Below are positions 2,904 to 52,260 of a stretch of 64,000 nucleotides of DNA, piece after piece. Source of the DNA: Nesterenkonia salmonea (lineage in GTDB: Bacteria > Actinomycetota > Actinomycetes > Actinomycetales > Micrococcaceae); NCBI RefSeq assembly GCF_005771525.1, contig NZ_VAVZ01000002.1, positions 1 through 64,000 on the forward strand, given 5' to 3'. A program made the position numbers and the translations under genes. The notes below the pieces were generated by a model. That model was not told the DNA's origin. It ran no database searches and saw nothing but the letters and a program-made list of their open reading frames with translations. Position 1 is the stretch's first letter. Each line of letters opens with the position of its first letter.

Positions 2904-3177
2904 ATGACTGAGCGTTCACCATGTCGGACCGCTCAGGAGACTTGGTTGACATCAATAACTCCGTGAGAGGGCAGCAGAGAACAATGCGCCGCGCGTAGCC
3001 GCTCCAGTGTCATGACGGTAGGTCTGCCACCGCTCCTCATGTTCTGCTCCGTACCCATTTCCGGTGGTGTCACAAGCGGTTCGCGTGACCTCGTGACACG
3101 CCCCTGGGTTCGAAACAGGTTTTGACTACGGCCACGTCGGCGTTTTGGCGGCAGTTATTGCGCCAGGCTCAGCTTGT
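2904..3177. other. Intergenic region without a recognisable gene
   Basis: No ORF here looks coding. The only structure I see is an inverted repeat, GTGTCAC at 3067-3073 and GTGACAC at 3093-3099. It could be a weak terminator or operator for the convergent genes on either side. Confidence 0.4.
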
Positions 3178-31519: not shown

Positions 31520-33082
31520 ATGAGCCTGGTCTTCCGCTTCGCAGCCCGCTCCGACGCCGGCACCGTTCGCAGTAAGAACGATGACTCCGGTTACGCCGGG
31601 CGGTACTTTGCCGTGGTCGCTGACGGTATGGGCGGTCACGCCGGCGGCGATGTGGCCTCGGCCTCCACTGTTCTGGACCTGGCACACCTGGACACCCGGG
31701 GCTTCGCCGAGCCGGACACTGTGCTGCCTGATGAGATTCAGACGGCGAATGCCTTCCTCAACAAGCTGGTGAAGACCAATCCCAAGCTTGCGGGAATGGG
31801 CACCACGATCACCGCCTGCCTGGTCACCGAGGACAAGCTGCAGTTCGCCCATATTGGCGACTCCCGCGCATACCGGTTGAAGAAGCGCCGATTCCGTCAG
31901 GTCAGCCACGATCACACCTTCGTTCAACGTCTGGTCGATGAGGGCCGGTTGGACCCCGCGGCCGCCGAGTACCACCCCCACAAGAACGTCCTGATGCGCG
32001 TGCTCGGTGATGTGGACGCCTCCCCAGAGCTCGACATCACAAGCTTCCCCCTGGAGGCCGGCGAGCGCTGGCTCCTCTGCTCCGACGGACTCAACGCCGT
32101 GGTCTCGGACCGCCTCATCGAACAGAAGATGCGCAGCTCTGACTCTTTGGAGAAGATCGTTGACGATCTCGTCAACCTCACCCTGGAGGGTGGGGCCCCG
32201 GATAATGTCACCGTCATCGCCCTCGATGTGGTCAAGGCCGAGGAAGAGCACCTGGCCAGTTCCGACTCCGTTCCCCTGAGCGCGCAGGCGGTGGCCTCCG
32301 CCGGGCAGTTCGGCGACGACGGCCACCACACTATGGAGCTCGACGTCATCCCCGTGGTCAACCGTGACGCCCTGGAGGGTCTCTCCCCCAAGGAGGGCGA
32401 ACTCTCACCACTCTCTGCGGCCATGGTGGAACGCACCCTGGGGGTCCGACCGCACACGCTGGTCGGGGCTGCAGTTGCGGCTGCTGAGACCGGCACGATC
32501 CCTGTGGTGCCGCGCAATGTCGATGAACACCCCATGGCCGCACTCCTGACGGGTCAGCCGCTGAAGCCAGTGCGCCACACGTATTCGGAGATGCTGGGCG
32601 AAGCCCCCGCAGAGCAGCCGCCTGAGAACGACGCCGCCGCGGCAGAGATCACCGAACCAGCCACTGAGCCATCCACCGATCACAGCCCAGAGATCGACGA
32701 GGAGGATGAGGACGAATACGTCCTCGACGACGAGGAGATTGCCGCCGTCCAGGCGACCCGACGGCGTCGTCGTTGGTTCCTGCCCACCTTTGTGGCGCTT
32801 CTGGTGGTGCTTATCGGAATTGTCACGTTCCTCGGATACGTCTGGACTCAGACCCAGTACTTTGTGGGTGAGGATGATGGTGAGGTGGCCATCTTCACGG
32901 GAGTCTCACAGTCCCTGGGGCCGATCACGCTCGCCGAAGTGGATGAGCACATGGGGATCAGCGTGGAGAATCTGCCGCGTTATGACCGCAACCGGGTGGA
33001 ATCGGGAATCTTCGCCGAAAACCGCACCCATGCCGAACAGATTGTGGAGAACCTGGAGCAGAGCACCGGGGGTGAGCAGTGA
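31520..33082 (+). CDS. pstP: PP2C-family Ser/Thr phosphatase PstP
   Basis: 520 residues. The PP2C domain (about 1-240) shows VRSKNDDSG, VVADGMGGHAGGDVAS, ITACLV, HIGDSRAYRL and GAPDNVTVI, the metal-binding Asp set. A long linker of about 175 residues, rich in Glu and Pro, leads to a TM helix at about 420-443 and a short external tail. It reverses PknA/PknB phosphorylation. The final four bases overlap rodA. The extended juxtamembrane linker is longer than in mycobacterial PstP. Confidence 0.95.
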   Translation: MSLVFRFAARSDAGTVRSKNDDSGYAGRYFAVVADGMGGHAGGDVASASTVLDLAHLDTRGFAEPDTVLPDEIQTANAFLNKLVKTNPKLAGMGTTITACLVTEDKLQFAHIGDSRAYRLKKRRFRQVSHDHTFVQRLVDEGRLDPAAAEYHPHKNVLMRVLGDVDASPELDITSFPLEAGERWLLCSDGLNAVVSDRLIEQKMRSSDSLEKIVDDLVNLTLEGGAPDNVTVIALDVVKAEEEHLASSDSVPLSAQAVASAGQFGDDGHHTMELDVIPVVNRDALEGLSPKEGELSPLSAAMVERTLGVRPHTLVGAAVAAAETGTIPVVPRNVDEHPMAALLTGQPLKPVRHTYSEMLGEAPAEQPPENDAAAAEITEPATEPSTDHSPEIDEEDEDEYVLDDEEIAAVQATRRRRRWFLPTFVALLVVLIGIVTFLGYVWTQTQYFVGEDDGEVAIFTGVSQSLGPITLAEVDEHMGISVENLPRYDRNRVESGIFAENRTHAEQIVENLEQSTGGEQ

Positions 33083-34548
33083 AGTCGCAAGATCACGAGG
33101 CGCATCCTAAGCCGCGGCGCAATGTTGAGCTGCTGCTGCTGCTGATCGCGCTCACCATAGGGATCGGTGCTCAGGTCCTGGTGGGCCTGAACCTCGAGGA
33201 CACGATCGACCAGCGCTACTGGACAGAGGGCGGCGTGCAGGTTGGATTGGCGCTGGCGTTCCACATTGCGCTGCGCCTCAGAGCAAAATACGCCGACCCC
33301 TTCATCCTTCCGATTGTGGTGACCCTCAACGGGCTGGGCATCGCCATGATCCACCGCCTTGACTTCACGAACCAGTACGACGGCGTCGCCGACCGTCAGC
33401 TGATGTGGACCGCTGTGTCTATGGTGGCGGCAATCGCTCTGCTGGTCCTGCTGCGGGACCACCGCCGCCTGCGCCAGTTCTCATACATCTCACTGGCGGT
33501 CAGCGTTCTGTTGCTATTCCTGCCGATCGTTCCGGGGCTGGGGCAGGACATCCAAGGTGCCCAGGTATGGGTCAGCATCGGCGGCATGAGCTTCCAGCCG
33601 GGCGAACTGGCCAAGATCACCCTGGCCATATTCTTCGCAGGTTTCCTGGCCAACAACCGTGACCTCATCCTTCTTGCCGGCAGGAAAGTGGGGCCCCTGA
33701 CTTTCCCCCGACTTCAGGATCTGGGGCCGCTCTTCTTGGCCTGGCTGATAGCTCTGGGTGTGCTCATCGTCCAGAACGACCTCGGCAACGCGCTGATGTT
33801 CTTCGGTCTGTTCGTCGCCGTGATCTACGTGGCGACCTCCCGCATCTCCTGGGTCGCCATCGGTGTCGCGTTCGTCGCCGTCGGCGCTGTCCTGGCGTAC
33901 CAGTTCGTCTGGCACGCCAGAAACCGCTTTGATATCTGGCTCAACCCTTTCGACCCCGAAATCTATGACCAGGCCTTCGGCTCCCACCAGTTGGTTCAAG
34001 GGCTCTTCGGCCTCGCCCACGGCGGACTCACCGGAACAGGACTCGGCTCGGGCTCACCCCAGGTCGTGGCACTGGCCAATTCGGACATGATCATTGTGGC
34101 CTTCGGTGAGGAACTCGGATTCCTGGGTCTCTCAGCCATGCTTGTGCTATACCTGATCCTTTTCTCACGCTATATGCGTGCCGGCCTCGGCACACGGGAC
34201 CACTTCGGCAAGCTGCTGGCAGTAGGCCTGGCCATGGTGCTTGTCCTGCAGGTGTTCGTAGTCGTCGGCGGCATCACCCGAGTGATCCCCATGTCCGGCC
34301 TGGTCAGCCCGTTCCTGGCTGCTGGAGGCTCCGCACTGCTGGCCAATTGGCTGATCGTCGCCATTGTGCTGCTGATCAGTCACGCCGCTCGCCGGCCCAT
34401 CGTGGTCGGTCCCATGCTCAACACCACTGGCAAAGGGGCCTCCGGCACCGAGGACCCGCTGCGTGGTCGCAACACCGGCGAGCAGCAGCCCGTGAGCGAG
34501 TCCCAGGGCTCGGCGACGGCACCGGCGCTGAAGGAAGGAGACTCCTAG
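33079..34548 (+). CDS. rodA: SEDS-family glycosyltransferase RodA/FtsW
   Basis: 489 residues, multi-pass, with the SEDS signatures VWVSIGGMSFQPGELAKI (catalytic Asp-region neighbourhood), GLFGLAHGGLTGTGLGSG and IVAFGEELGFLG, and the end PMSGLVSPFLAAGGSALLANW. SEDS proteins polymerise lipid II and work with a class B penicillin-binding protein. Here the partner gene pbpA follows directly, so this pair should serve lateral or septal wall synthesis under kinase control. It starts by overlapping pstP. Confidence 0.95.
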   Translation: MKSQDHEAHPKPRRNVELLLLLIALTIGIGAQVLVGLNLEDTIDQRYWTEGGVQVGLALAFHIALRLRAKYADPFILPIVVTLNGLGIAMIHRLDFTNQYDGVADRQLMWTAVSMVAAIALLVLLRDHRRLRQFSYISLAVSVLLLFLPIVPGLGQDIQGAQVWVSIGGMSFQPGELAKITLAIFFAGFLANNRDLILLAGRKVGPLTFPRLQDLGPLFLAWLIALGVLIVQNDLGNALMFFGLFVAVIYVATSRISWVAIGVAFVAVGAVLAYQFVWHARNRFDIWLNPFDPEIYDQAFGSHQLVQGLFGLAHGGLTGTGLGSGSPQVVALANSDMIIVAFGEELGFLGLSAMLVLYLILFSRYMRAGLGTRDHFGKLLAVGLAMVLVLQVFVVVGGITRVIPMSGLVSPFLAAGGSALLANWLIVAIVLLISHAARRPIVVGPMLNTTGKGASGTEDPLRGRNTGEQQPVSESQGSATAPALKEGDS

Positions 34549-36009
34549 GTGAACAACGCCATCCGTCACACCTGGGTCGTCTCCGTGGCCCTGTTCGTCT
34601 CACTCTTCGCCGCCCTGTCTCTGATCCAGGTGGTCTTCTCCGACGACCTTAACTCCGACTCACGGAATTCACGCCAGACCATCGCTGACGCTGGTGCCCC
34701 CCGCGGGCCCATCACAGTTGACGGAACGCCCATTGCAGAATCGGTGCCCAGCGACACGACCCAGTATGACTATCAGCGGGTCTACAACGAACCGGAACTC
34801 TACAGCCACCTCACCGGCTACTTCTCCGTGGTTCAAGGCCGCGCTTCCGAGGCGGGAATTGAGGGGGCTCTCAATGAGGAGATCTCCGGGCACTCCGACT
34901 CCCAATTCTTTGACCGGATCACTGCCCTCTTCACCGGAGAAACGGTCATGGGGGCGCAGGTGGAACTGACCATCGACCCTGAGCTGCAGCGGCTTGCCTA
35001 TGACCAGATTCCCAATGATCAGCGCGGGACCATCATTGTCACCGACCTCCGCAATGGGGAGATCAAGGCCATGATGTCCAAGCCCAGCTATGACACCAAT
35101 GAGCTCGCCGTTCATTCCAGTACCGAGTACCAGGAGAACATGGAGCGGCTCGATGAGCAGGAAGGCCTCCACGTAAACTACAACGTGGCCGTAGGGCGCC
35201 CCATCTTCCCCGGGTCGTCGTTCAAGCTGATCACTGCCCTGGCCATGCTGGAATCCGGTGACTATGAGCTGGACACGGAACTGGACAACCCCTCCAGCAT
35301 CGATCTGCCGCAGTCTGACCGAACACTTCCGAACTTCGCTGGCGGCAACTGTGCCCAACGCAGTCAGGCCGAACTGAACTGGATCTTCGCTCAGTCCTGC
35401 AACACGCCCTTCGCTGAGGCCGCAATGGAACTTGGTGAGGAATCCATCCAGGAGGCGGCGGAGGCCTATGGCTGGAATGAGGCGATGCGCATTCCTGTCT
35501 ACGTCCAGCCGTCCCGCTTCCCCGAAACAACATCCGACGCCGAACTGGCGCTTTCCTCGATCGGTCAAGCGAGCGTGACAGCCACCCCGCTGCAGATGAA
35601 TATGGCAGCAGCAGCAATCGGCAACGGCGGCACCCTGATGAAACCTCAGCTAGTGGACACTGTTCGGGGCTCTGACCTTCAGATCCTCTCCAACCCTGAA
35701 CCAGAAGTGCTCAATGATGTGATGGATGAGTCCACCGCCGGTGAGCTCAACGAGATGATGGTCGGCGTCGTCGAAGAGGGAACCGGCTGGCGCGCCGACT
35801 CCGGGCGTTTCCAGGTCGCTGCCAAGACCGGAACAGCCGAGCGCGGCGACGATACCGGGACCTACAACTCATGGATCACTGGCTTCGCACCGGCTGATGA
35901 CCCCCAGTACGCCGTGACCGTCGTCTACGAGGGCATCGACCTCGGCACGGGTACTGATCTCACCGGACGCCAGATGCTTACTATGCTGGAGGCGGTGATT
36001 GACGAATGA
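34549..36009 (+). CDS. pbpA: Class B penicillin-binding protein PbpA
   Basis: 486 residues starting with GTG right after rodA. One N-terminal TM helix (about 10-30), a dimerisation domain, then the transpeptidase domain with the SxxK motif in [12 protein letters not shown], SxN as SCNTPF and KTG in [10 protein letters not shown]. It cross-links peptidoglycan together with the RodA polymerase. It is the expected phosphorylation target of PknB in mycobacteria. The end overlaps pknA by four bases. Confidence 0.95.
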
Positions 36010-37850
36010 GACCCGCGGTCGGACTCACGATGGGTGACCGCTATAAACTCACCGAACGTATCGCCATCGGCGGTATGGGTGAGGTGTGGAAGGCCGACGA
36101 CATAGTCCTCGGCCGCACAGTCGCGATCAAAATCCTCAAAGAGGAGTACACCGGCGATGAGGCATTCCTCCGCCGTTTCCGAGCCGAGGCCCGCCACACC
36201 GCCCTGCTGAACCACCCAGGCATCGCCGACATCTACGACTACGGCGAACAGGCCGGTTCCGGCTACCTGGTGATGGAGCTGGTACCAGGCAGGCCACTGA
36301 GCGTGATCTTGGAACGAGACAAGACGCTCCCGTGGGAGAAAGTGCTCTCCATCATGGCTCAGACCGGACGGGCTCTCCAGGTCGCCCATGATCAGGGTCT
36401 GGTGCACCGTGATGTGAAGCCGGGAAACCTGCTGGTCACACCCACCCGCCGGGTGAAGATCACGGACTTCGGCATCGCGCGGCTCGCCGATCAGGTGCCG
36501 CTGACAGCGACCGGTCAGGTGATGGGCACTGTCCAGTACCTCTCCCCTGAACAGGCCACCGGCCAGCACGCCACTGGCTCTTCGGATATCTACGCCCTCG
36601 GGGTCATCGGCTACGAGGCGCTGGTGGGCCACCGGCCCTTCACGGGTGAGTCGCAGATCGCGATTGCGCTGAAGCAGGTCAATGATCCACCTCCGCCGCT
36701 GCCCGATGACGTCCCGGCCCAGGTCCGTGCGCTCATCATGTGCATGCTGGCCAAGGACTCAGATCAGCGCCCACCCAACGCCAGCAAAATGGCAGACGCC
36801 GCAGAGGCTCTTCTGCGTCACGACACCGCTGCAGCCTTGGCGGCAGTTCCTGCGATGAGGAACCACCTGCGTGGCACCGGGGACGACGACGATACCCAGC
36901 TGCTGCCCACCGCGGACGCCGCTGGCAGTGGTCAGCCTGTTGGGGAGGATGTCACGGCCGCACTCTCCGCCACGACCCCTGAACAGCCCGTGCCAGCACA
37001 GACCTCCCTGCCGGCCACCGCGCAGGCCCAGGCTGCCGGGCTGCCGAGCCCGGACACTCAGCAGAGCCCGGCGGCGGAACAGAAGGAGTCCACCATCGGG
37101 TCCCGGTGGCGCTGGCCCACCATCACGCTGATCGTTCTGGTGCTCCTTGCCGTCTTCGGCGCCTGGGTTCTGCCTTTGATGGCGGCCAACGATCACTCTG
37201 AGGACGATTCCGACGCAGCCCCGACGCAGTATGTGACTGAATACGCCACTGAAACCGCGACGGCGGAGCCCGAGCTGGTCGCAGTCGATGAGGACGAGTT
37301 GCTCGGCCGCAATGTCGACGAGGTCCAGGTTCTTCTCGAGGAAGAAGGCCTCCAGGTGGAAGCCGAAGAGGTGACCTCCACTCAGGAAGCCAGAACCGTC
37401 ACTGGGGTCACTCCCGCAGGCAGCCTTCCGCTCGGTGCGACCGTCACACTGTTCTACTCGGCCGGTCCTCCCCCACCACCGGCGACTACCCAGGAACCAC
37501 CACCACCGCCACCGGCAACCACGGAGGCACCGCCTCCACCGCCGCCGAGCCCCACTCCGACTGAGGCTGAAACCACCGAACCGGAACCGGAACCTGAGCC
37601 AGAACCGGAACCCGAACCCACGCCGAGTCCTGAGCCGGAACCGGAGCCAGAACCGGAGCCAGAACCCACAGACACTGAGACCGATGCGGCCGGGACGCCG
37701 GGCACCCCCAGCAGTATTCCCACATCGACCAGTACCGAATCCAGCTCAACCAGCATCACGCTGGTCGGGAACTCCCCGGCCACTACCCCGCAGTCCAGCG
37801 CGGGCGGGCCGTCGCAATACAACTACTTCGCCTCAGGAGGTGACCGATGA
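36006..37850 (+). CDS. pknA: Ser/Thr protein kinase PknA with one PASTA-like domain
   Basis: 614 residues. The kinase domain (about 10-275) has the Gly-loop [10 protein letters not shown], Lys in [26 protein letters not shown] and an activation loop with [12 protein letters not shown] helix follows at about 370-391. Outside the membrane there is a PASTA-like module (about 427-484; [36 protein letters not shown]) and then a Pro-run and Glu-Pro-repeat tail to residue 600. Mycobacterial PknA lacks PASTA, so this copy is unusual, though such domains do occur elsewhere in actinobacteria. It overlaps pbpA and pknB. Confidence 0.95.
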
Positions 37851-40024
37851 CCGAGCGAGTGCTCAACGGCCGCTACCGGATCGAGGCGCTAATCGGCCGC
37901 GGTGGCATGGCAGATGTCTACCGCAGCTACGATTTGTCCCTGGAGCGAGACGTCGCAGTGAAGATGCTGCGGCCCGACTTGGCCCGTGACCCCATGTTCC
38001 AGACCCGGTTCAAACGGGAGGCGCAGTCCTCGGCCTCGTTAAACCATCCCAATGTTGTGGGGGTCTACGACACTGGTTCCACCCAGGTCAGCGAAAACGG
38101 TGGGGACACCAAGACGCCCTACATCGTCATGGAGTTCGTCCGGGGGGTCACCCTGCGGCACATCTTGCACGGCAGCCGCGGGGAAGCATCACAGGAGGGC
38201 ACTGACTCCCCTCCGCTGCCACCTCAGCCGGCAGAATCCACGGGAGGAGCCGCCCGCACCGACTCTGATGTCCTCGGTGTCACCGACCCTGACGCCACAC
38301 AGGTCGTCTCACAGGTGACCCAGCCGCTGGACAAGAAGATTGACACTGCTCTGAACAGGCCCCTGAGCGATCAGGAGGCCGCCCGGTACATGTCCGGGAT
38401 CCTGGCCGCGTTGAGCTACTCCCACACCCGTGGCATCGTGCACCGGGACATCAAGCCCTCCAATGTGATGGTGTCCCAAAGCGGGGATGTGAAGGTCATG
38501 GACTTCGGCATTGCCCGAGCTCTGGCCGACTCCGCGCAGACCATGACCCAGACCTCTGCTGTGGTCGGCACCGCCCAGTATCTTTCCCCGGAGCAGGCCC
38601 GCGGCGAGGTGGTCGATCACCGCAGCGATCTCTACTCCGCAGGCTGTGTGCTGTTCGAGCTGCTGACCAATCGTCCGCCGTTCACTGGGGAGTCCCCGGT
38701 GTCGGTGGCCTATCAGCATGTGCGTGAGCAGCCCCCGGCCGTCTCAGACTTCAACCCTCATGTCTCCCCTGCCATGGAATCAGTGGTGACGAAGGCGCTG
38801 ATCAAGGATCCGGCTCTGCGCTTCCAGACGGCAGACGAGTTTGAGGCCGCTTTGGCAGACGCCCTGCACGGCATCCCTGTGGACGAGGGCGCCACCACGC
38901 AGCTCGCCGCGGTGGGCGCCACCGGTTTCGACGACGTGGTCTCACCTGCTGGGGCCGTCCCTATGTCAGCCCGCACCCCTGAAGATCCGGACTACAACGA
39001 CTACCAGGAGTACGGCCAGCCCAGACGCCGACCCAACCGCACCGGGCTCTATATCCTGCTGGTGATTTTGGCGCTGGCTCTGCTGGCCGGCACCACTTTT
39101 GTGCTCTCGCAGATGCTCGGTGACTCAGACGGCGTCGAGGCAGAGATGGTCGAGGTTCCTGCTGTGGCCGGCATGCCGGAGGACGAGGCCGTCCAGGAAC
39201 TCACCGACGCCGGACTCAGCCCTGAGACCGTCACCGAGACCAGCTCGGAGGTGGAGGCTGATTTTGCGATCCGCACTGACCCTGACTCAGGGACTGAGGT
39301 GGAAAGCGGAAGCGATATCACTCTCTACATCTCCGAAGGCGATGGCGAGGTCGAAATCCCTGAGGGCCTAGTGGGTCAGCCGGAGGACACGGTCCGCGGG
39401 ATCTTGGAAGAAGCTGGGCTCGAGGTCGGAACGGTCACCGAAGAGGACGATCCGGATGCCCCCGAGGGTGAGGTCATCAGCACCGACCCTGAATCCGGTA
39501 CCTCTGTAGAATCCGGCTCAGAGGTCAACCTGGTCATTTCTACCGGAGAAGTCCAGCTGCCATCCGGTCTCGAAGGATACGTCGGCCAGCACCGCAGCTT
39601 CGGTGAGGAGTTCCTGGTCTCAGAAGGGTTCCAACTGACACCTCAGCCGCGGTGGGTGGAGACATCCGATATCGACGGCAGCGGGGAACTTCTCGGCTAC
39701 GAGGTCAACGGCCAGGCGGTATCCAGTGGCGACTCCGTTCCGAACGACGCCGTCATCCAGATCGTCGCGGGAACCCTCCCTCAAACCCAGGAGGACGACT
39801 CTCCGTCTGAGGATGAGGACGACGATGAGGAGGAAGAGGACTCCCCCGGCAATAACGAAGATGAAGACGACAATGGGGACGAGGAGGACTCCGGCAACGA
39901 CGAGGAAGAAGAGGAAGAGGGCGACTCCCCCGGGAACGGCAACAACGGCAATGGCAATGGCAACGGAAACAACGGCAACGGGAATGGCAACCAGGACGAG
40001 AACGAGGAAGAGGACGAGGAGTAG
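37847..40024 (+). CDS. pknB: Ser/Thr protein kinase PknB with PASTA domains
   Basis: 725 residues. Kinase domain about 8-290: Gly-loop [33 protein letters not shown], activation-loop Thr-rich [20 protein letters not shown]. An insert of about 58 residues (about 108-165), Pro/Ser/Asp-rich, sits in the hinge-to-helix region. A TM helix is at about 400-421. Two clear PASTA repeats (about 430-495 and 497-562) and a degenerate third (to about 640) should bind muropeptides or lipid II. The last 80 residues are poly-Asp/Glu and Asn-Gly repeats. The kinase senses wall status and phosphorylates division and wall enzymes. Confidence 0.95.
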
Positions 40025-40027
40025 TCT

Positions 40028-41326
40028 TTGGCGATGATCCGTCTGCGCCCACCCCGACCGGCGACCATTGTTCTGGGCAAGGCAGCCCGTGCGCTGACCA
40101 GACTGCGCGGCGGTTCAGGTTCAGCATTCCCCGGGCTTGTTGTTGAGCGACTCGACCCCAGTTTTCTTGCTGGGGTGCTCGCCCAGTTGCCCCGCGGCGT
40201 CGTCGTAGTTTCAGGGACCAATGGCAAGACCACCACCACCAAGATGGTGGTGGAGCTGTTGCGCGGCCAAGGACTCCGGGTTTTCACGAACCGTTCGGGC
40301 TCCAACTTCACCCGCGGAGTGGTCGCGTCCATGCTCGGCGAGATTGGCCCCACCGGCAGACTCAACGCAGATATTGCTGTTCTGGAGCTCGATGAGGCTC
40401 ATGCGGTGCACTTTGTGCGGGCCGTGAATCCGCAGTACTCCCTGTTGTTGAACGTGATGCGCGATCAGCTCGACCGGTTCGGCGAAATCGACACCACCGC
40501 CGGACTGCTGCGGACCATCGCCGAACACACCACTGAGGGTGTGGTGCTCAACCGCGAAGACTCCCGGGTCGCTGCGATCGCCGACTCGCTCAGCACGCAG
40601 CAGGTCAAGTACTTTGGGCTGGCCCCGGAGCTGCGTTCCCATTTTCCTTCCGACGATGAGCTCCACGGGGCAGGTTCCGGGGTAGTGAGTCAGCAGCCTG
40701 AGGCTGATGTGCTGCTGACCGGGCTGGGCACCCAACAGGGAACCTTCCGGATGGGTGCCGAAGAGATCAGCAGCGAGCTGACCGTCAACGGGGCGTACAA
40801 CATTTACAACGCTGCCGCCGCGCTGGCTCTGGTCCGGCTGGTGCTCGGCGATGACACTGACCGTGGTGCACTCCTGGCGTCACTGCGCAGAGCGTCACCG
40901 GCCTTTGGGCGTGGAGAGTCCCTCACCGTGGGGGGCCAGCCCGTAGACCTGGTGCTGGTGAAGAACCCGTCAGGTTTCCGGCTGGGGCTTTCGAGCTTCC
41001 CAGCTGAGGGGGTGGCGACCATGATCGCCATCAATGACAACTACGCCGACGGGCGCGATATGAGCTGGCTATGGGATGTCGGCTTCGAATCCTTGGCCCA
41101 CAAAGGTGTCGCGATGGTCTCCGGGGTCCGCACCTATGACATGGCGCTGCGGCTGAGCTATGACGGAGTGAGCATCGCTGCCCACGAACCCGATCTTGGG
41201 AAGGCCCTGGACGATTTTTTGGCAGCTCACCCGGACGTCCCCAAGCGCATCTTCTGCACCTACACCGCAATGCTTGCCCTGCGTAAACGCCTGGGCACCT
41301 ACACCGAGGTGGAGGCCTTCAACTGA
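40028..41326 (+). CDS. murT: Lipid II isoglutaminyl synthase, MurT subunit
   Basis: 432 residues. A Mur-ligase fold with P-loop VVSGTNGKTTTTKMVVELL, NRSGSNFTRG, ELDEAHAV and the C-terminal MurT domain (IAINDNYADGRDMSWLWDV). MurT activates the D-Glu carboxylate of lipid II for amidation by GatD, encoded next with a one-base overlap. The Cys4 zinc-ribbon insert reported in MurT of Firmicutes is absent: the only Cys is in RIFCTYT near the end. The gene follows pknB by 3 bases, so amidation is embedded in the kinase/wall operon. Confidence 0.93.
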   Translation: MAMIRLRPPRPATIVLGKAARALTRLRGGSGSAFPGLVVERLDPSFLAGVLAQLPRGVVVVSGTNGKTTTTKMVVELLRGQGLRVFTNRSGSNFTRGVVASMLGEIGPTGRLNADIAVLELDEAHAVHFVRAVNPQYSLLLNVMRDQLDRFGEIDTTAGLLRTIAEHTTEGVVLNREDSRVAAIADSLSTQQVKYFGLAPELRSHFPSDDELHGAGSGVVSQQPEADVLLTGLGTQQGTFRMGAEEISSELTVNGAYNIYNAAAALALVRLVLGDDTDRGALLASLRRASPAFGRGESLTVGGQPVDLVLVKNPSGFRLGLSSFPAEGVATMIAINDNYADGRDMSWLWDVGFESLAHKGVAMVSGVRTYDMALRLSYDGVSIAAHEPDLGKALDDFLAAHPDVPKRIFCTYTAMLALRKRLGTYTEVEAFN

Positions 41327-42102
41327 TGACTGTGCCCGTTCCCTCTGAGCCCACAGCTTCCGATCAGCAGATTCGTGTCCTTCAGCTGTATCCGCGGGAT
41401 ATGAATATTTACGGTGACTACGGCAACGCCCTGGTGCTGATGCGGCGTATCCAGTGGTACGGCTTCACTCCGGTGATGCTCTCCTACAACCCAGGGGACG
41501 AGTTCCCTGAGGATGTGGACATGCTCATCGGAGGAGGGGGCCAGGACTCCGGGCAGGACCGGATACAGCAGGACCTTCTGGGCATCGGCGACCGGCTGCG
41601 CGGCTTGGCCGAACAGGACACTCCGATGCTCATGATCTGTGGGCTCTACCAACTGTTCGGGCACTTCTTCGAAACACGCGACGGTTCACGCATCTCAGGG
41701 GTCGGTGTCCTGGATGTCGAGACCTACGGCACGGACAATCGGCTGATCGGCAACGTGGTTTCAGAATCCGCGGATTTCGGTCAGATCATCGGTTATGAGA
41801 ACCACTCCGGGCAGACATACTTGGGGCCCACAGCTGAACCGTTGGCGCAGGTCGTTGTCGGCGAAGGAAACAACCAGCGGGACCCCCACGAGGGCGCCAG
41901 GTACCGCAATGTGCTCGGCAGCTACCTCCACGGGGCCCTTCTGCCCAAGAACCCTGCGATCGCGGACTTCCTGATCGGCACCGCCGTGCGGCAGAAGTTT
42001 GAGCAGGAACTTCCTGCGTTTGAGGCACCACAGTCAGCTCCGGTGAGCTTACAAACTCTTACCGAACACGCCAGGGAAGCTGCTGCCGCCAGACCCCGCT
42101 GA
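41326..42102 (+). CDS. gatD: Lipid II isoglutaminyl synthase, GatD subunit
   Basis: 258 residues with a class I glutamine-amidotransferase-like fold of the CobB/CobQ type. The catalytic Cys lies in LMICGLYQLFGHFF (about residue 105), and the His in GSYLHGALLPKNP (about 205). GatD releases ammonia from glutamine and passes it to MurT. The two together convert the D-Glu of lipid II to D-isoglutamine, which aids cross-linking. It ends one base from the convergent PabA/TrpG gene, with no visible terminator between. Confidence 0.93.
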   Translation: MTVPVPSEPTASDQQIRVLQLYPRDMNIYGDYGNALVLMRRIQWYGFTPVMLSYNPGDEFPEDVDMLIGGGGQDSGQDRIQQDLLGIGDRLRGLAEQDTPMLMICGLYQLFGHFFETRDGSRISGVGVLDVETYGTDNRLIGNVVSESADFGQIIGYENHSGQTYLGPTAEPLAQVVVGEGNNQRDPHEGARYRNVLGSYLHGALLPKNPAIADFLIGTAVRQKFEQELPAFEAPQSAPVSLQTLTEHAREAAAARPR

Positions 42103-42103
42103 T

Positions 42104-42733
42104 TCAGCGGATGGGGTTGAGGTCGGCAGCCTTCACAGCTGCCCCTTCCATCCCGAGGGACTCCAACCAGTTGCCCAGCATCCGGTAACCTCCCTCAGTC
42201 AGCACGGACTCTGGGTGGTACTGCAACCCCCACAGGGGGGCGCTGCGATGCGCCAGCGCCATGATCACTCCATCGGCGGTGGTGGCGGTGACCTCAAGGA
42301 CATCCGGGACCGTGTTCGGCTGCACAGCAAGCGAGTGGTAGCGCGTAGCCTCGAATGTCTCTGGAAGTCCAGCGAAGGACTCGTGCCCGGTGTGCGTCAC
42401 CGGTGATGTCTTGCCGTGCATCAGCTGGTCAGCGTGCGTCACGGTGGCACCGAATGCCTCACCGAGGCCCTGATGGCCCAAACAGACTCCCAGCATCGGG
42501 GACCGAGCTTCTGCGCACCAGCGGATCAAGTCCACGGAGATTCCTGCGTTCGCGGGAGTTCCTGGGCCCGGGGAGATCAGCACACCATCGTGTTCCGCGG
42601 CGAGCTCGGTGACTTCTTCCAGGCTCAGGTCATCATTGCGGATCACTGTGGTCTCAGCGCCGAGCTCACGCAGGTACCCCACCAGCGTGTAGACAAAACT
42701 GTCATAGTTGTCGACGACGAGAATACGAGTCAT
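42104..42733 (-). CDS. PabA/TrpG-type glutamine amidotransferase
   Basis: 209 residues from ATG 42733 (a TTG at 42742 is less likely). Class I amidotransferase triad: Cys in GVCLGHQGLGEAFG, and His/Glu in LQYHPESVLTEGG. Early VVDNYDSFVYTLVGYL and ISPGPGTP are classical. It supplies ammonia to a PabB/TrpE synthase for p-aminobenzoate or anthranilate. No synthase gene is adjacent. In many actinobacteria this gene sits beside pknB/sortase and is annotated as pabA or trpG; I cannot tell which. Confidence 0.9.
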   Translation of the reverse strand: MTRILVVDNYDSFVYTLVGYLRELGAETTVIRNDDLSLEEVTELAAEHDGVLISPGPGTPANAGISVDLIRWCAEARSPMLGVCLGHQGLGEAFGATVTHADQLMHGKTSPVTHTGHESFAGLPETFEATRYHSLAVQPNTVPDVLEVTATTADGVIMALAHRSAPLWGLQYHPESVLTEGGYRMLGNWLESLGMEGAAVKAADLNPIR

Positions 42734-42742
42734 AGCGGTCAA

Positions 42743-42907
42743 TTATCCGTCATCAAGGGTCACATCACCCAATGGGCTGTATTCGCTCAGCCAGGGGAAG
42801 ACAAATTCCATGAGGCCGTAGACCGCTGCCGCCAGCAAAACCAGTGTGGTGAGGATCCGAATCCACAGCGGACCAGGTAGGACATCGTTGAAGAACCAGG
42901 CGTACAT
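42743..42907 (-). CDS. 54-residue membrane protein between sortase and PabA
   Basis: Reads MYAWFFNDVLPGPLWIRILT, a hydrophobic helix through VLLAAAVYGLMEFVFPWLS, and a short acidic end, with TAA at 42743. The start overlaps the sortase stop by one base (TGATG), so translation is probably coupled. One or two TM segments. Small proteins with a PGP-W-R-L pattern at this place are found in other actinobacteria next to class E sortase, which supports a real gene. Function unknown; a role in envelope assembly with the sortase is possible. Confidence 0.8.
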   Translation of the reverse strand: MYAWFFNDVLPGPLWIRILTTLVLLAAAVYGLMEFVFPWLSEYSPLGDVTLDDG

Positions 42908-43779
42908 CAGTCGGCACCTCTGGCGTAAAACATCTCAGAGATCGGCTCATGGTGCACCAGCTCTTCCGGCGCCTCACCACCCAGCGGCACAAAGTCCACA
43001 ATCTCAGCGTGGTGGATCAGCCGTTCCCGGTTGGAGTACAACGGGTGGCAGGTGGTGAAGGTCAACACGCCGAACTCGGCCTCTGCCTCCGGGTCACTCG
43101 GCACTGCTGAGAGCACTTCGGCCTGGCTGGGAAGAACAACCTGACGCTCTTGGACCTCGTAGATGTAGATCCCGTCATAGGAGACCACATAGATCGGGTC
43201 GCCTATCTGCAGGTTGTCCTGATTGCCGAGCATGGACGCATTGGTGTTGCGGTGACCGGCCAGGGCAAAGTTTCCCGGCTCATCCGGCCACTGTGTCTCT
43301 GTGTAGTGCCCCACGCCTCCGCGGTCGATCTGCGCCGCGCTGGTGCCGTGTCTGATCGGTGCCGCCCACTGATCACCCAGTCGCGGGGCGTAGACCGTAC
43401 CCATGATGTCCTCCGACCCGGTCTGACTGCGCATGTGGTCCGCGCACCCGATCTCAGTGCCGTCCTCCAGGGTGTAGCAGACGTCGAAATCGACCGGGGA
43501 CGGTCCCCCGTCGTCGCCGTCTCCGGCCGGCTCAGCCCGGTCCGGCATTCCGGCGTAGAACTCATTGAGCGAGTCCTGCCTATCCGACTCAGCCTCAATT
43601 CCGGTCCACCACAGTTCCCAAACCACAAAAAGCAGCCCCAGCACACCGAGCGTGATGAGGATTTCTCCGAACCAGCCGACCATCCGAGAACCGAACGAAC
43701 GGCGACGCCGCCGTGGTGGTGAAGTTACTCGAGCCGCCCGCTGTGCCGGGTCTGCGTGTCGAGGTGGTGCTAGCGTCAT
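42907..43779 (-). CDS. Class E sortase
   Basis: 290 residues from ATG 43779. A basic N-terminus and one TM helix (about 35-52) place the catalytic domain outside. Sortase residues are visible: His in FALAGHRNTNA, Cys in LTFTTCHPLYS, and Arg in SNRERLIHHA. Class E sortases of high-GC actinobacteria recognise LAxTG-type sorting signals. Between TM and barrel there is an acidic spacer with a CYTL/IGC pair of Cys. It heads an operon with the 54-aa protein and PabA/TrpG and is divergent from crgA. Confidence 0.92.
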   Translation of the reverse strand: MTLAPPRHADPAQRAARVTSPPRRRRRSFGSRMVGWFGEILITLGVLGLLFVVWELWWTGIEAESDRQDSLNEFYAGMPDRAEPAGDGDDGGPSPVDFDVCYTLEDGTEIGCADHMRSQTGSEDIMGTVYAPRLGDQWAAPIRHGTSAAQIDRGGVGHYTETQWPDEPGNFALAGHRNTNASMLGNQDNLQIGDPIYVVSYDGIYIYEVQERQVVLPSQAEVLSAVPSDPEAEAEFGVLTFTTCHPLYSNRERLIHHAEIVDFVPLGGEAPEELVHHEPISEMFYARGAD

Positions 43780-43860
43780 CGTAGTCAGTGGCTCGCTTTG
43801 CGTAGAATGGCGCGGAAGAAGTCCGACGACCATAGAATACCCAATATTCAGGAGTCACCC

Positions 43861-44160
43861 GTGCCAGAATCCCGACGCCGGAAGAACCGCAATGCCGGCG
43901 ATCAGCAGCAGAATGATCCGAAATCCCCGCTGAGCGGCGCTGAACAGTTCAGCATGGACGGCCTGGACGGGGAGGACGAGTCGCTGCCCACGTGGTACCG
44001 GGTGACCATGTTCGGGCTGATGATCATCGGTCTGCTCTGGCTGATCACCTGGTATGTCACCTCCGGGGCACTACCGATCAGCACCCTCGGAGGCTGGAAC
44101 ATCATTGTCGGGTTCTCCATCGCGATGGTCGGCTTCTTTATGACCATGCGCTGGAAATAG
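43861..44160 (+). CDS. crgA: Cell division protein CrgA
   Basis: 99 residues from GTG 43861, six bases after an AGGAG. It begins PESRRRKNRN, as CrgA proteins do, and ends with two TM helices (VTMFGLMIIGLLWLITWYV and WNIIVGFSIAMVGFFMTMRW). CrgA interacts with FtsZ, FtsQ, FtsI and FtsW at the septum. The frame extends upstream to 43798, but that part overlaps the divergent promoter region and has no similarity. Convergent with the tricorn-type gene, 3 bases apart. Confidence 0.93.
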   Translation: MPESRRRKNRNAGDQQQNDPKSPLSGAEQFSMDGLDGEDESLPTWYRVTMFGLMIIGLLWLITWYVTSGALPISTLGGWNIIVGFSIAMVGFFMTMRWK

Positions 44161-48935: not shown

Positions 48936-49709
48936 TTAGGCGGCGGGCTTAGGTGATGGAACCTCAGCGCCTGCGGGCTTCGCATCCGTGTTGGTCTCCG
49001 CCTGAGCCGCCGGCTTGGGCGAATCAGCTGGAACCTTGGATGAGGAGACCGGCTCTGGCTTCTTCCAGGGGTCTTCCACCGGCTTGGACGCCCTCCAGGC
49101 GGCCACCCCGGCAGTCACGCCTGCGGCGACCACACCGAAGACGAGGAGGCCCTTCTTCCGGGACTTCGCCTTCTGCTGCTTCTTCAACTCTTTGGCCGCA
49201 GCTTTGGCGGCCTTCTCAGAGTTCTTCCGCAGCTTCTTGACGATCTTCTTATCCCCGGTGGCCTTGATCAGCGCCGATTCCACCCGTGGGTCGAGCTCAG
49301 CCTTGTGGATCAGCTTGGCGGTCTGATCCGCATAGCCTCCCAGTTTGGCTGAAGCCGCGGGCAGGGTGTTCTTGGTGAAGTCAGTCTTGGCGTCGTCGTA
49401 CTTGGCGACGACCCTTTGGATCTCTTTCTTGGCCTTTGGCGGCAGCTTGTCATACTGAGCAGCTATGCCGTCACCAGCCTGGGATGAAAATTCCTTAATT
49501 TTGGAACCAGCCACAGCCGCACCGTCATTCACCGCGTGAAGAGCTTTTGCCGAGGCATCCTGTACCTTCGGAGCACTCTTGCGGTAGGTGTCTTCTGCCC
49601 AGTCAGCAGCCGTACCAACTTTTGGTGCGGCCCATTCCTGAGCAGTTTCGAGTCCGGCGAGCACAGTGTGCCCCCAGGTGTGGCTCGGTTTCTTTTTCTT
49701 ACCGAACAT
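48936..49709 (-). CDS. Coiled-coil membrane protein of unknown function
   Basis: 257 residues. Residues 1-185 are hydrophilic and helical with amphipathic Ala/Lys repeats (KNSEKAAKAAAKELKKQQKAK), followed by one TM helix (GLLVFGVVAAGVTAGVAAW) at about 190-209 and a Pro/Lys/Ser-rich tail outside. Proteins of this layout occur widely in Micrococcales near ppiA, annotated as hypothetical. No enzymatic motif. Divergent from ppiA. Role unknown; a structural envelope factor is possible. Confidence 0.75.
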   Translation of the reverse strand: MFGKKKKPSHTWGHTVLAGLETAQEWAAPKVGTAADWAEDTYRKSAPKVQDASAKALHAVNDGAAVAGSKIKEFSSQAGDGIAAQYDKLPPKAKKEIQRVVAKYDDAKTDFTKNTLPAASAKLGGYADQTAKLIHKAELDPRVESALIKATGDKKIVKKLRKNSEKAAKAAAKELKKQQKAKSRKKGLLVFGVVAAGVTAGVAAWRASKPVEDPWKKPEPVSSSKVPADSPKPAAQAETNTDAKPAGAEVPSPKPAA

Positions 49710-49768
49710 GCATGTCCTCCGAATCAGGATCGGTTGCTCTACTTAGCCTACATGGAACAATAGCCCTT

Positions 49769-50314
49769 ATGACTGCAATAGCTACCCATAAAGCGACCAT
49801 CAAGACCAACGCCGGCAACATTGTTGTCGAACTCTTCGGTCACCACGCTCCGGTGACTGTGGAGAACTTCGTGGGGCTGGCCACCGGTGATAAGCCGTGG
49901 AAGCACCCAGAGACCGGTGAAGACAAGACGGGCACCCCGCTCTACGACGGTACGGTATTCCACCGGATCATCAAAGACTTTATGATCCAGGGCGGCGACC
50001 CGCTGGGCCTGGGTGTGGGCGGACCGGGTTACCAGTTCGACGACGAGATCCACCCAGAGCTGGACTTCACCGAGCCGTACAAACTGGCTATGGCTAACGC
50101 CGGTACCCAGAACGGCAAAGGCACCAACGGCTCCCAGTTCTTCATCACCTCAGTGGCCACCACCTGGCTGCAGGGCAAGCACAGCATCTTTGGCGAAGTC
50201 CGTGACGCGGAAAGCCGGAAGATTGTGGATGACCTCAACGCCGTGTCCACCGATATGCGCGACCGTCCCAAAGAGGACGTCGTGATCGAGTCCATCGAAG
50301 TAGACAAACTCTGA
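49769..50314 (+). CDS. ppiA: Cyclophilin-type peptidyl-prolyl isomerase
   Basis: 181 residues from ATG 49769. The long upstream frame is antisense to the neighbour and was not used. Cyclophilin blocks: FHRIIKDFMIQGGDP (catalytic Arg), GTQNGKGTNGSQFFIT and LQGKHSIFGEV. It catalyses cis/trans isomerisation of Xaa-Pro bonds. No signal peptide, so it is cytoplasmic. The stop TGA overlaps an in-frame CTG that could start the rhomboid gene. Confidence 0.95.
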   Translation: MTAIATHKATIKTNAGNIVVELFGHHAPVTVENFVGLATGDKPWKHPETGEDKTGTPLYDGTVFHRIIKDFMIQGGDPLGLGVGGPGYQFDDEIHPELDFTEPYKLAMANAGTQNGKGTNGSQFFITSVATTWLQGKHSIFGEVRDAESRKIVDDLNAVSTDMRDRPKEDVVIESIEVDKL

Positions 50315-50349: not shown

Positions 50350-51180
50350 GTGGCGTGCCAGCGCTGCGATAGGCCTCTTTGTTCTGCGTGCATGGTGGAG
50401 GCCCCGGTGGGTTTTCAGTGCCCAGTCTGTATTGATGAGGCACGACGCCGCCTGCCCACCCAGAGAACCGCGTTCGGGGCTCGTGCCGGGTCGGGGAGAC
50501 CAACTGTCACCTACTCGGTGATCGCCATCTGTGTGGTGGTCTACATCATCCAGATCCTGCCGGTCTCTGCCGGTCAGCTGCTCAGTCCGCTCCCCGATCT
50601 GACCGAGCTGTGGGCCTACGCGCCAGCGTACACCTCAGCCTGGTACCCGGTGTTCGAGCCCTGGCGGATGCTGACCTCCGCGGTTTTGCATCATCCCGGC
50701 AACGCCATGCATATCGCGTTCAATATGCTCGCCCTGTGGTTCGTGGGCCGATCGATGGAACCTGAGATTGGCCGGTCACGTTTCATTGCGCTGCTGGTGC
50801 TCTCCGCCTGGGGTGGTTCCCTGGCGATCCTGCTCAGCTCCGTCGTCGGGCTGTCCAGTCCCTTCGGTCCAACAGTAGGAGCCTCAGGGGCAGTATTCGG
50901 TCTGTTTGGTGCGCTGTTCATCCTGATGCGATCCTCGGGTTCCGAGACCGGAGGAATCGTCGCGTTGGTAGTGATCAACATGGCGGTCAGCTTCCTGGTG
51001 CCGAACATCTCGTGGCAGGGCCACCTGGGTGGACTCATCACCGGTGTGCTGGTGGCACTGATTATTGCTAAGTCACCGCGCCGCAATAGGGTGCTTTGGA
51101 CCTCAGTGGGCTTCTCGGGACTCATCCTGGGGCTTTTGGGACTCACCCTTGCCGGTATCCAGCTGGTGCCTCTGCCCTAA
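50350..51180 (+). CDS. Rhomboid-family intramembrane serine protease with N-terminal zinc ribbon
   Basis: 276 residues from GTG 50350. It starts CQRCDRPLCSACMVEAPVGF and CPVC, a zinc-ribbon of the kind that opens many actinobacterial rhomboids. Six TM helices follow; the catalytic Ser is in TVGASGAVFGLFG and the His in ISWQGHLGGL. In-frame codons upstream, without a stop, read TCFQHQGKEAYVA and would supply the usual first Cys-x2-His pair of the ribbon. A CTG at 50311 overlapping the ppiA stop is the most likely start if they are used. Substrates unknown. Confidence 0.9.
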   Translation: MACQRCDRPLCSACMVEAPVGFQCPVCIDEARRRLPTQRTAFGARAGSGRPTVTYSVIAICVVVYIIQILPVSAGQLLSPLPDLTELWAYAPAYTSAWYPVFEPWRMLTSAVLHHPGNAMHIAFNMLALWFVGRSMEPEIGRSRFIALLVLSAWGGSLAILLSSVVGLSSPFGPTVGASGAVFGLFGALFILMRSSGSETGGIVALVVINMAVSFLVPNISWQGHLGGLITGVLVALIIAKSPRRNRVLWTSVGFSGLILGLLGLTLAGIQLVPLP

Positions 51181-51237
51181 CCCGGCCTCACTCTGTCCGG
51201 CGGCGGGCGGTCTCATTCCCCAGATTCCACAAGATCC

Positions 51238-51365
51238 TGTGGATAACCTCTGTTAAATGCTGCTCAAGACCGCTGTGTCCTGTCGTAGGGCGAATGTTTG
51301 GGTGCGCAACGCAAGGAGTTACACGTGTGTAGTTTATCCACACTGTGGATAACTGCTGTGGATAA
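51238..51365. promoter_or_regulatory. Cluster of four consensus DnaA boxes
   Basis: TGTGGATAA at 51238-51246, TTATCCACA at 51334-51342, TGTGGATAA at 51344-51352 and at 51357-51365, all perfect matches to the TTATCCACA consensus. Boxes 2 and 3 form the palindrome TTATCCACACTGTGGATAA. The cluster lies between the rhomboid gene and the SDR gene, ending 31 bases before that start. Confidence 0.85.
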
Positions 51366-51396
51366 CTCGTTCAGCGTGACGGTCTAGTCTTGATCC

Positions 51397-52260
51397 ATGT
51401 CTTCGGCTCCTTCTCCGCACCGTTCCTCATCCACCTCAGGCCCCCACCACGTGCTGCTGGCAGGGTGTGGTGATTTAGGCTCCCATGTGGGACAACTGCT
51501 GCATCGCTCCGGCCATCAAGTCACCGGAGTCCGCCGGAACGCTGAGGCCGCTGAGGTTCCGTTCCCGGTGGTCAGCATGGATTTAGCAGACCCTGGAACA
51601 GTGCAGTTACCTGAGGCGGACGCAGTGGTCATCGCGCTGACTGCCGATAGCTATGATGCTGCCGGTTATGAGCGGGCCTACCGCAGCACACTTCGCGGGC
51701 TGGCCAAAGCTCTACCCACGGTGCCGCAGCGCGTAGTACTGGTGTCCTCCACCGGCGCGCTTGGCGATCATGAGGGTGAGGTCATCACGGAGGACTCCGA
51801 ACCACTCCCAGACAGGGAGACCGGCAAGGTGCTTCTCGCCTCGGAGCAGGATGCGCAGGAGCTCTTCGACTCAGTGACGATTCTGCGGGCGGCTGGGATC
51901 TATGGACCAGGCCGGACTCGGACGATCGACCAGGTGCTGCGCGGCAATCCAATGGACCATGGACGCATCACCAACCGTATTCACCGCGATGACTTATCCG
52001 CTGCCATCGCGCGGCTGGTTGCCGTTAACAACCCTCCCGCGCTGCTCCATGGGGTGGACAGAGAACCGGCGCCACTTGGCCGGGTGGTGGAGTTCGTTGC
52101 TGGTCTGCTGAATGTGCCCGTACCGGAGGATTCTGGTTCCGGCCGACCGCACGGCAAGACCCTGGACGGCACCGCTCTGCACCGGTTCATGGGTGAGTCC
52201 GGACTGCAATATCCAACATTCCGTGAGGGGTACAGCGCCTTAGTGGAAGCTCGCGCTTAA
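51397..52260 (+). CDS. NAD(P)-dependent SDR/epimerase-like protein
   Basis: 287 residues. The Rossmann Gly-motif is LLAGCGDLGSHVGQLL at about residues 21-36. Later VVLVSSTGALGDHEGEVITE holds the catalytic-type Ser, and RAAGIYGPGRT is typical of extended SDRs of the YeeZ type. The Tyr-x-x-x-Lys is not in the usual position, which is common in this atypical group. Substrate unknown. The DnaA-box cluster sits directly before its start, so transcription may respond to DnaA. Confidence 0.82.
   Translation: MSSAPSPHRSSSTSGPHHVLLAGCGDLGSHVGQLLHRSGHQVTGVRRNAEAAEVPFPVVSMDLADPGTVQLPEADAVVIALTADSYDAAGYERAYRSTLRGLAKALPTVPQRVVLVSSTGALGDHEGEVITEDSEPLPDRETGKVLLASEQDAQELFDSVTILRAAGIYGPGRTRTIDQVLRGNPMDHGRITNRIHRDDLSAAIARLVAVNNPPALLHGVDREPAPLGRVVEFVAGLLNVPVPEDSGSGRPHGKTLDGTALHRFMGESGLQYPTFREGYSALVEARA

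Follow-up and report, generated by a model that had tools for sequence, protein, structure and literature searches.

A conserved composite of DnaA boxes and a McdR/ResR-like operator beside the rhomboid gene of Nesterenkonia, a putative replication-control site

What do four perfect DnaA boxes do at a place outside a dnaA-dnaN locus? The question was raised by a 64,000-nucleotide stretch of the Nesterenkonia salmonea genome, which was analysed as a whole and is called the window here. The boxes (TTATCCACA) lie within 128 bp (51238-51365), and boxes 2 and 3 form the 19-bp palindrome TTATCCACACTGTGGATAA (51334-51352). The initial annotation had described the four boxes, the palindrome and an SDR gene whose ORF starts 31 bases past the last box, and its coordinates agreed with ours. 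An 18-bp inverted repeat, which directly precedes box 2 and abuts the box triplet, had been overlooked (Table 1). The sequence offers an operator-matching repeat and then, at near-constant distance, three boxes, one of which faces the other two. The element is probably a conserved composite, a putative DnaA/McdR site that controls replication and a new variant of the oriC-proximal DnaA-box cluster. No Hda, SeqA or YabA system is known in actinomycetes, and the timing of initiation in these bacteria is poorly understood. A conserved non-coding site in which DnaA boxes adjoin the putative operator of an essential regulator of cell division would offer a concrete handle on this timing, one that can be deleted.

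Table 1. Features of the element and its surroundings (positions in the window)
Feature	Position	Strand	Basis or remark
crgA	43798..44160	+	PF06781, E 4e-22; about 7 kb from the element
Cyclophilin-type peptidyl-prolyl isomerase gene (ppiA-like), conserved neighbour	49547..50314	+	PF00160, E 1e-41; real start probably further inside
Rhomboid protease gene, conserved neighbour of the element	50350..51180	+	PF01694, E 8e-28
Intergenic region rhomboid-SDR, entire element inside	51181..51396	.	ORF coordinates and sequence; 216 bp
DnaA box 1, perfect TTATCCACA	51238..51246	-	Sequence match
McdR/ResR-like operator AGTTACACGTGTGTAGTT	51317..51334	.	2 mismatches in 14 specified bases against AATnACAnnnnTGTnATT
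DnaA box 2, perfect	51334..51342	+	Faces boxes 3 and 4; one base in common with the operator
DnaA box 3, perfect	51344..51352	-	Sequence match
DnaA box 4, perfect	51357..51365	-	Starts 13 bp after the start of box 3; gap of 4 bp
NAD(P)-binding SDR/epimerase-like gene, neighbour only locally	51397..52260	+	PF13460, PF01370

The stretch 31520-44160 of the window holds genes for a PP2C phosphatase, an FtsW/RodA protein, a penicillin-binding transpeptidase, two kinases, a MurT-like protein, two proteins with amidotransferase domains and a class E sortase, followed by crgA. The distance between crgA and the rhomboid gene is about 6-7 kb.

Perfect boxes had been called rare by chance, and the counts bore this out. 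The window contained 13 matches with at most one mismatch compared with 5.71 +/- 2.35 expected, and 0 of 100 shuffles reached as high a number. Genome-wide, 27 perfect boxes were found in 3.28 Mb versus 9 with the reversed-pattern control, and the element was the densest group among these 27. The fifth perfect box of the 64-kb window, at 45509, stood alone within a tricorn-protease-like ORF. Chance clustering was ruled out by the shuffles and the genome-wide count, together with the conservation and the composite-scan controls described below.

The element has several high-affinity boxes outside oriC, as is characteristic of an oriC-proximal DnaA-box cluster. The dnaA-dnaN neighbourhood by which a chromosomal oriC is recognised was not found around it. 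The single dnaA of the genome is located at G000:C63:36041-37426, the window belongs to contig C53, and the dnaA-dnaN gap on C63 holds three perfect boxes of its own. Since the sole dnaA and its box-bearing gap sit on a different contig, the element was ruled out as oriC, and the earlier argument that a stretch without dnaA or dnaN is no textbook origin held. A second pair of perfect boxes, 54 bp apart, was seen at G000:C63:9581 and 9635, on the dnaA contig some 26 kb ahead of that gene.

Conservation in relatives had been proposed as a check. The rhomboid gene was present in 27 of 30 genomes of the genus, the three without a match being 65, 79 and 82% complete. In all 27 Nesterenkonia rhomboid loci, which were chosen on the rhomboid alone, the composite motif followed the gene; the boxes were kept in close relatives, so that the half of the case against them which expected their loss failed. 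The box cluster lay no more than 600 bases past the rhomboid in 25 of the 27 loci, and in L045 and L063 the element was found about 1.3 kb downstream of it. The rhomboid locus of the window was 87.5% identical over 3.8 kb to that of Nesterenkonia haasae, and two further relatives had loci that match those of N. haasae and N. massiliensis without a difference. The exact inverted pair TTATCCACANTGTGGATAA occurred in 4 of 58 relatives searched, all four among the 30 genus genomes. It is a looser form of this pair that is conserved, in which the boxes drift by 1-2 bases and the layout stays constant. In the alignment of 25 genus elements the ACA-N4-TGT core just before box 2 never varied and was as well conserved as the boxes. 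A box with at most two mismatches stood exactly 41 bp before box 2 in 19 of the 27 loci. The step from box 1 to box 2 was 96 bp in N. salmonea and G009 and 92 bp in G005, and a lengthening of 51-55 bp between box 1 and the operator (51247-51316 in the window) was common to these three genomes. Of the sequence sets referred to here, A2 comprises 25 genus sites and A4 comprises 37 hand-chosen sequences; A1 leaves out L038-L040, with their 51-55 bp insertion, and both A1 and A2 leave out L045 and L063, whose element is situated farther away than the 600 bases covered by the scan.

The inverted repeat resembles the operator of McdR (Rv1830, ResR). In mycobacteria this member of the MerR family represses the division gene whiB2, and its published operator is AATnACAnnnnTGTnATT, according to the available text of PMC9040748. 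The same text reports that McdR binds the motif upstream of whiB2 and that altering the repeat or the length of the spacer abolishes binding. The accessible part of PMC10336103 describes McdR as conserved throughout the actinobacteria and confined to them, and as able to tolerate a few mismatches. In the 64-kb window the repeat of the element was the only match to the motif with two or fewer mismatches. No copy of the element's operator had more than two mismatches in A4 (37 of 37 sequences), A2 (25 of 25) or the class loci (20 of 20, 10 of them perfect). Among the genus sites of A2 there was no perfect match, and the site of N. salmonea itself has two mismatches. The inverted repeat was also compared with the FtsR motif and with the MtrA direct repeat, neither of which fits. 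BldD and parS were discounted as well.

The operator palindrome TTACACNNGTGTAA was rare, occurring at 9 places in 24 genomes, 6 of which were the element; of the others, two precede WhiB-family genes and one precedes an nrdR gene. Because of the matches upstream of WhiB-family genes, whiB-type promoters were examined over the 450 bp that precede the matched stretch. Of 30 genomes, 29 had the McdR motif there with at most two mismatches, 6 of them in perfect form, compared with 5 of 1500 shuffles. The 30 genomes had been chosen by hand, with G102 and G214, the source of the lead, among them; without these two the count was 27 of 28. The whiB-type gene of N. salmonea carried the upstream motif with one mismatch. 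The label whiB2 rests on similarity among the genes and on the McdR papers, and the Pfam WhiB domain was confirmed at three loci. A DnaA box (at most one mismatch) within 75 bp of the motif was present in 1 of the 30 whiB-type promoters; the corresponding figure of 96 out of 96 for copies of the element follows from the scoring, whereas that for whiB does not. As so few of the whiB-type promoters have a near box, the pairing of box and operator is special to the oriC-proximal copy. A McdR-like palindrome together with a DnaA-box-like sequence, judged by eye, was noticed upstream of an nrdR gene in G586 (L335, about position 3053).

McdR-like sites were found in the dnaA-dnaN gap too. An exact ACA-N4-TGT core with three or fewer mismatches was present in 16 of 17 Nesterenkonia loci, in 14 of these 16 about 54-124 bp after dnaA. 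The gap of N. salmonea contains TCTCACACTGATGTAGTT, McdR-like with three mismatches (G000:C63:37400-37900; L002 7400-7900). Outside the genus such a site was seen in 2 of 20 gaps, giving a total of 18 of 37 against 0.54 expected from shuffles; these loci are related and therefore not independent. Of the five DIP-seq peaks mentioned in PMC9040748, three are named in the available text, and the rhomboid/crgA site may be among the remaining ones.

The reach of the element was followed through the class with three sequence-only models. R1 (E <= 0.01) had matches in 291 of 295 genomes of the family, R2 (E <= 1e-4) in 95 of 248 genomes of the order, 19 of which belong to the own family, and R3 (E <= 1e-3) in 255 of 394 genomes of the class, partial matches being possible in each case; at this threshold 139 of the 394 class genomes gave no match with R3. 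From the matches listed for R1-R3, a wide set of 100 mostly high-ranking loci was picked by hand (L117-L156, L196-L235, L286-L305; one genome, G389, is counted twice). All three models contained the palindrome and the boxes, so that the wide set was to some extent bound to show them, which does not apply to the neighbour genes. These were counted anywhere in the stretch (5.5-10 kb in most loci, 3 kb in two), and a rhomboid or ppiA gene was found in 88 and crgA in 65 of the 100 loci. In one class member PpiA was nearly identical to chain 1w74_A, a mycobacterial PpiA, and by this protein the member is taken to be a mycobacterium.

The composite scan was positive in 97 of the 100 wide loci versus 0 of 100 reversed and 0 of 100 2-mer-shuffled sequences (96 or 97 loci were scored under slightly different rules). 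The step from operator start to box 3 was 26-29 bp in 96 of 96 loci, and 27 bp in 57 of them, where 20-33 bp was allowed; the step from box 3 to box 4 was fixed at 12 or 13 bp by the scan. Box 2 was weak in many of the loci: at its best offset it was perfect in 3 and had one mismatch in 40, two in 46 and three in 7. The element lay within 1 kb downstream of the rhomboid or ppiA gene in 80 of 87 scored loci. Two composite-like copies about 210-410 bp apart were observed in the family loci L118, L123, L124, L128, L129, L130, L137, L140, L141, L142, L145, L149 and L150.

The surroundings of the element bear on whether it regulates a neighbouring gene. The element might control transcription of the SDR gene, crgA or the rhomboid gene, or of dnaA in the family f3, by DnaA, McdR or both, and this would agree with the known action of McdR as a transcription repressor (PMC9040748, in the portion available), with the 31 bp that separate the element from the SDR start in the window and with its location just upstream of dnaA in some f3 genomes. 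However, the best composite lay between convergent rhomboid/ppiA and crgA genes in 61 of the 100 wide loci (one of these, L234, fell short of the composite score), and among the 87 scored loci its orientation relative to rhomboid/ppiA was inverted in 63 and the same in 24. Within Nesterenkonia, too, both the sequence and the gene downstream of the element differ between species, and 6 of the 25 loci with the element directly after the rhomboid have it inverted. In G002 and G019 the 19-bp palindrome lies by the rhomboid, away from the best SDR match. Regulation of the SDR gene, as proposed at the outset, is unlikely in view of this variation of neighbours and orientation, and we regard a role in transcription in general as distinctly unlikely.

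The convergent 3' ends at these 61 loci could also be taken to indicate a roadblock or terminator, formed by box-bound DnaA or by a hairpin. The 19-bp palindrome could fold in this way, and 88.3% of the cells paired compared with 33-61% for slid versions. Against this, no covariation was found (0 pairs changed on both sides), and the paired share was the same as that of shuffled columns (88.4%). An RNA hairpin was therefore rejected; pairing without covariation is what would be expected of two box halves that are each conserved in their own right. The position upstream of dnaA in f3 does not fit a terminator either, and we judge this explanation very improbable.

The preferred reading, a site that controls replication initiation, leads to the position of the element relative to dnaA. 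In the 14 Nesterenkonia genomes that have both on one contig, the distance was 10-45 kb, with 8 of them at 12.6-13.6 kb, and in G030 the element was about 108 kb from dnaA. Further distances came from 13 genomes with dnaA at the start of the contig (G096 and G214, in which no dnaA was found there, were removed from this list). They were about 17.4 kb in G112, 16.9 in G220, 16.6 in G258, 16.2 and 16.5 in G173, 17.7 in G247, 20.1 in G323, 14.8 in G842, 15.9 in G808, 14.9 in G766, 10.8 in G657, 10.4 in G755, 22.6 in G337 and 33.3 in G647. Where measured, the element is usually 10-25 kb from dnaA. In some genomes of f3, another family, it was located upstream of dnaA, on the same contig in G037 and, with a weaker operator, in G490, and across the contig end, circular chromosomes being assumed, in G377, G390 and G500. 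For the f3 genomes with this arrangement a transcription role is just as likely.

A relocated part of the origin had been suggested for the cluster, and a displaced origin half or a second origin that loads replisomes would indeed be box-rich and usually close to oriC. The proximity to dnaA in most genomes measured agrees with this part of the suggestion, and so do the copies that precede dnaA, on the contig itself in G037 and beyond the contig end in G377, G390 and G500. The box-bearing dnaA-dnaN region is nevertheless intact elsewhere in the genome, and inspection of the element by eye showed no AT-rich unwinding stretch. Of the alternatives, we consider an additional or displaced origin the least probable.

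Several boxes near oriC could also serve merely to soak up DnaA, the operator palindrome having no part in replication. Outside oriC, Streptomyces coelicolor and Bacillus subtilis have DnaA-box clusters that are said to repress untimely initiation in the available text of PMC5742627, PMC10950094 and PMC5295017. In eight genomes of family f37 only the box half was matched and the palindrome half gave no match, and in all eight this box half lay between the rhomboid and crgA genes of its locus, as titration alone would allow. A pure sink, however, needs neither an operator core that stays the same in all 25 aligned elements of the genus nor its constant 26-29 bp step to box 3 in 96 of 96 wide loci, and titration alone is in our view unlikely. 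Of the three options first offered, that of a datA-like site fits best if it is taken in the broad sense of a site that regulates DnaA.

On balance, we lean towards reading the element as a composite site close to oriC that controls replication initiation and is predicted to be gated by McdR and to link initiation to division. DnaA would bind the boxes and McdR the abutting operator, and at box 2 McdR might then decide by contact, bending or exclusion whether or how a DnaA complex forms. Such a complex near oriC could hold (or recharge) DnaA, which would shift the initiation threshold and tune the DnaA available to oriC, and the division loop of McdR and WhiB2 would thereby extend to replication. 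Between negative control, by titration or inactivation, and DARS-like reactivation, the negative role seems somewhat likelier, because the Streptomyces and B. subtilis clusters outside oriC are said to restrain initiation. The element would give McdR/ResR a target in replication; the portions of PMC9040748 and PMC10336103 available to us discuss whiB2, DNA repair and translation. A bolder form of the idea, to which we give less than even credence, is an element common to the actinomycete class, on which McdR/ResR and DnaA assemble at one site with DARS-like head-to-head boxes and McdR switches the activity of DnaA. If so, the McdR-DnaA site would couple the state of division directly to replication initiation, and in mycobacteria antibiotic resilience would be coupled to initiation as well. 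In the available literature on crgA/rhomboid with DnaA boxes, on TTACAC/GTGTAA with DnaA and on Rv1830/ResR/McdR with oriC, the element was not found reported.

Among known DnaA-control sites, the core of E. coli DARS consists of three boxes, of which box I points the other way from II and III, and adjoins a region for accessory factors (PMC5742627, as far as its text was available). Boxes 2, 3 and 4 of the element (51334 +, 51344 - and 51357 -) face in the same way as those of DARS1 and DARS2. The start-to-start steps, however, are 10 and 13 bp here, compared with 14 and 12 bp in DARS1 and DARS2 alike (our own assignment of the E. coli boxes), and because of this difference the element was not filed as a DARS. 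The accessory site is McdR-like here and IHF/Fis in DARS. According to the available text of PMC11317965, DnaA in E. coli ChIP prefers boxes 2-3 bp apart and suffers a large loss with one added base; by this preference the 4-bp gap between boxes 3 and 4 argues against easy pairing of DnaA. With E. coli datA the element shares a non-coding DnaA-box cluster outside oriC and a site for an accessory protein whose spacing matters (PMC4585315, in the part accessible), whereas its arrangement is unlike that of datA. The oriC-proximal clusters of S. coelicolor and B. subtilis likewise lie outside oriC and differ in that the text available on them mentions no McdR-type operator. One of those in S. coelicolor, H69, may be situated in the crgA region. 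With the McdR/ResR operator the element agrees in sequence and symmetry (AATnACAnnnnTGTnATT), the motif being also found upstream of whiB-type genes here. The known sites named in the available text are promoters, whereas the copy in the element abuts DnaA boxes by the rhomboid gene.
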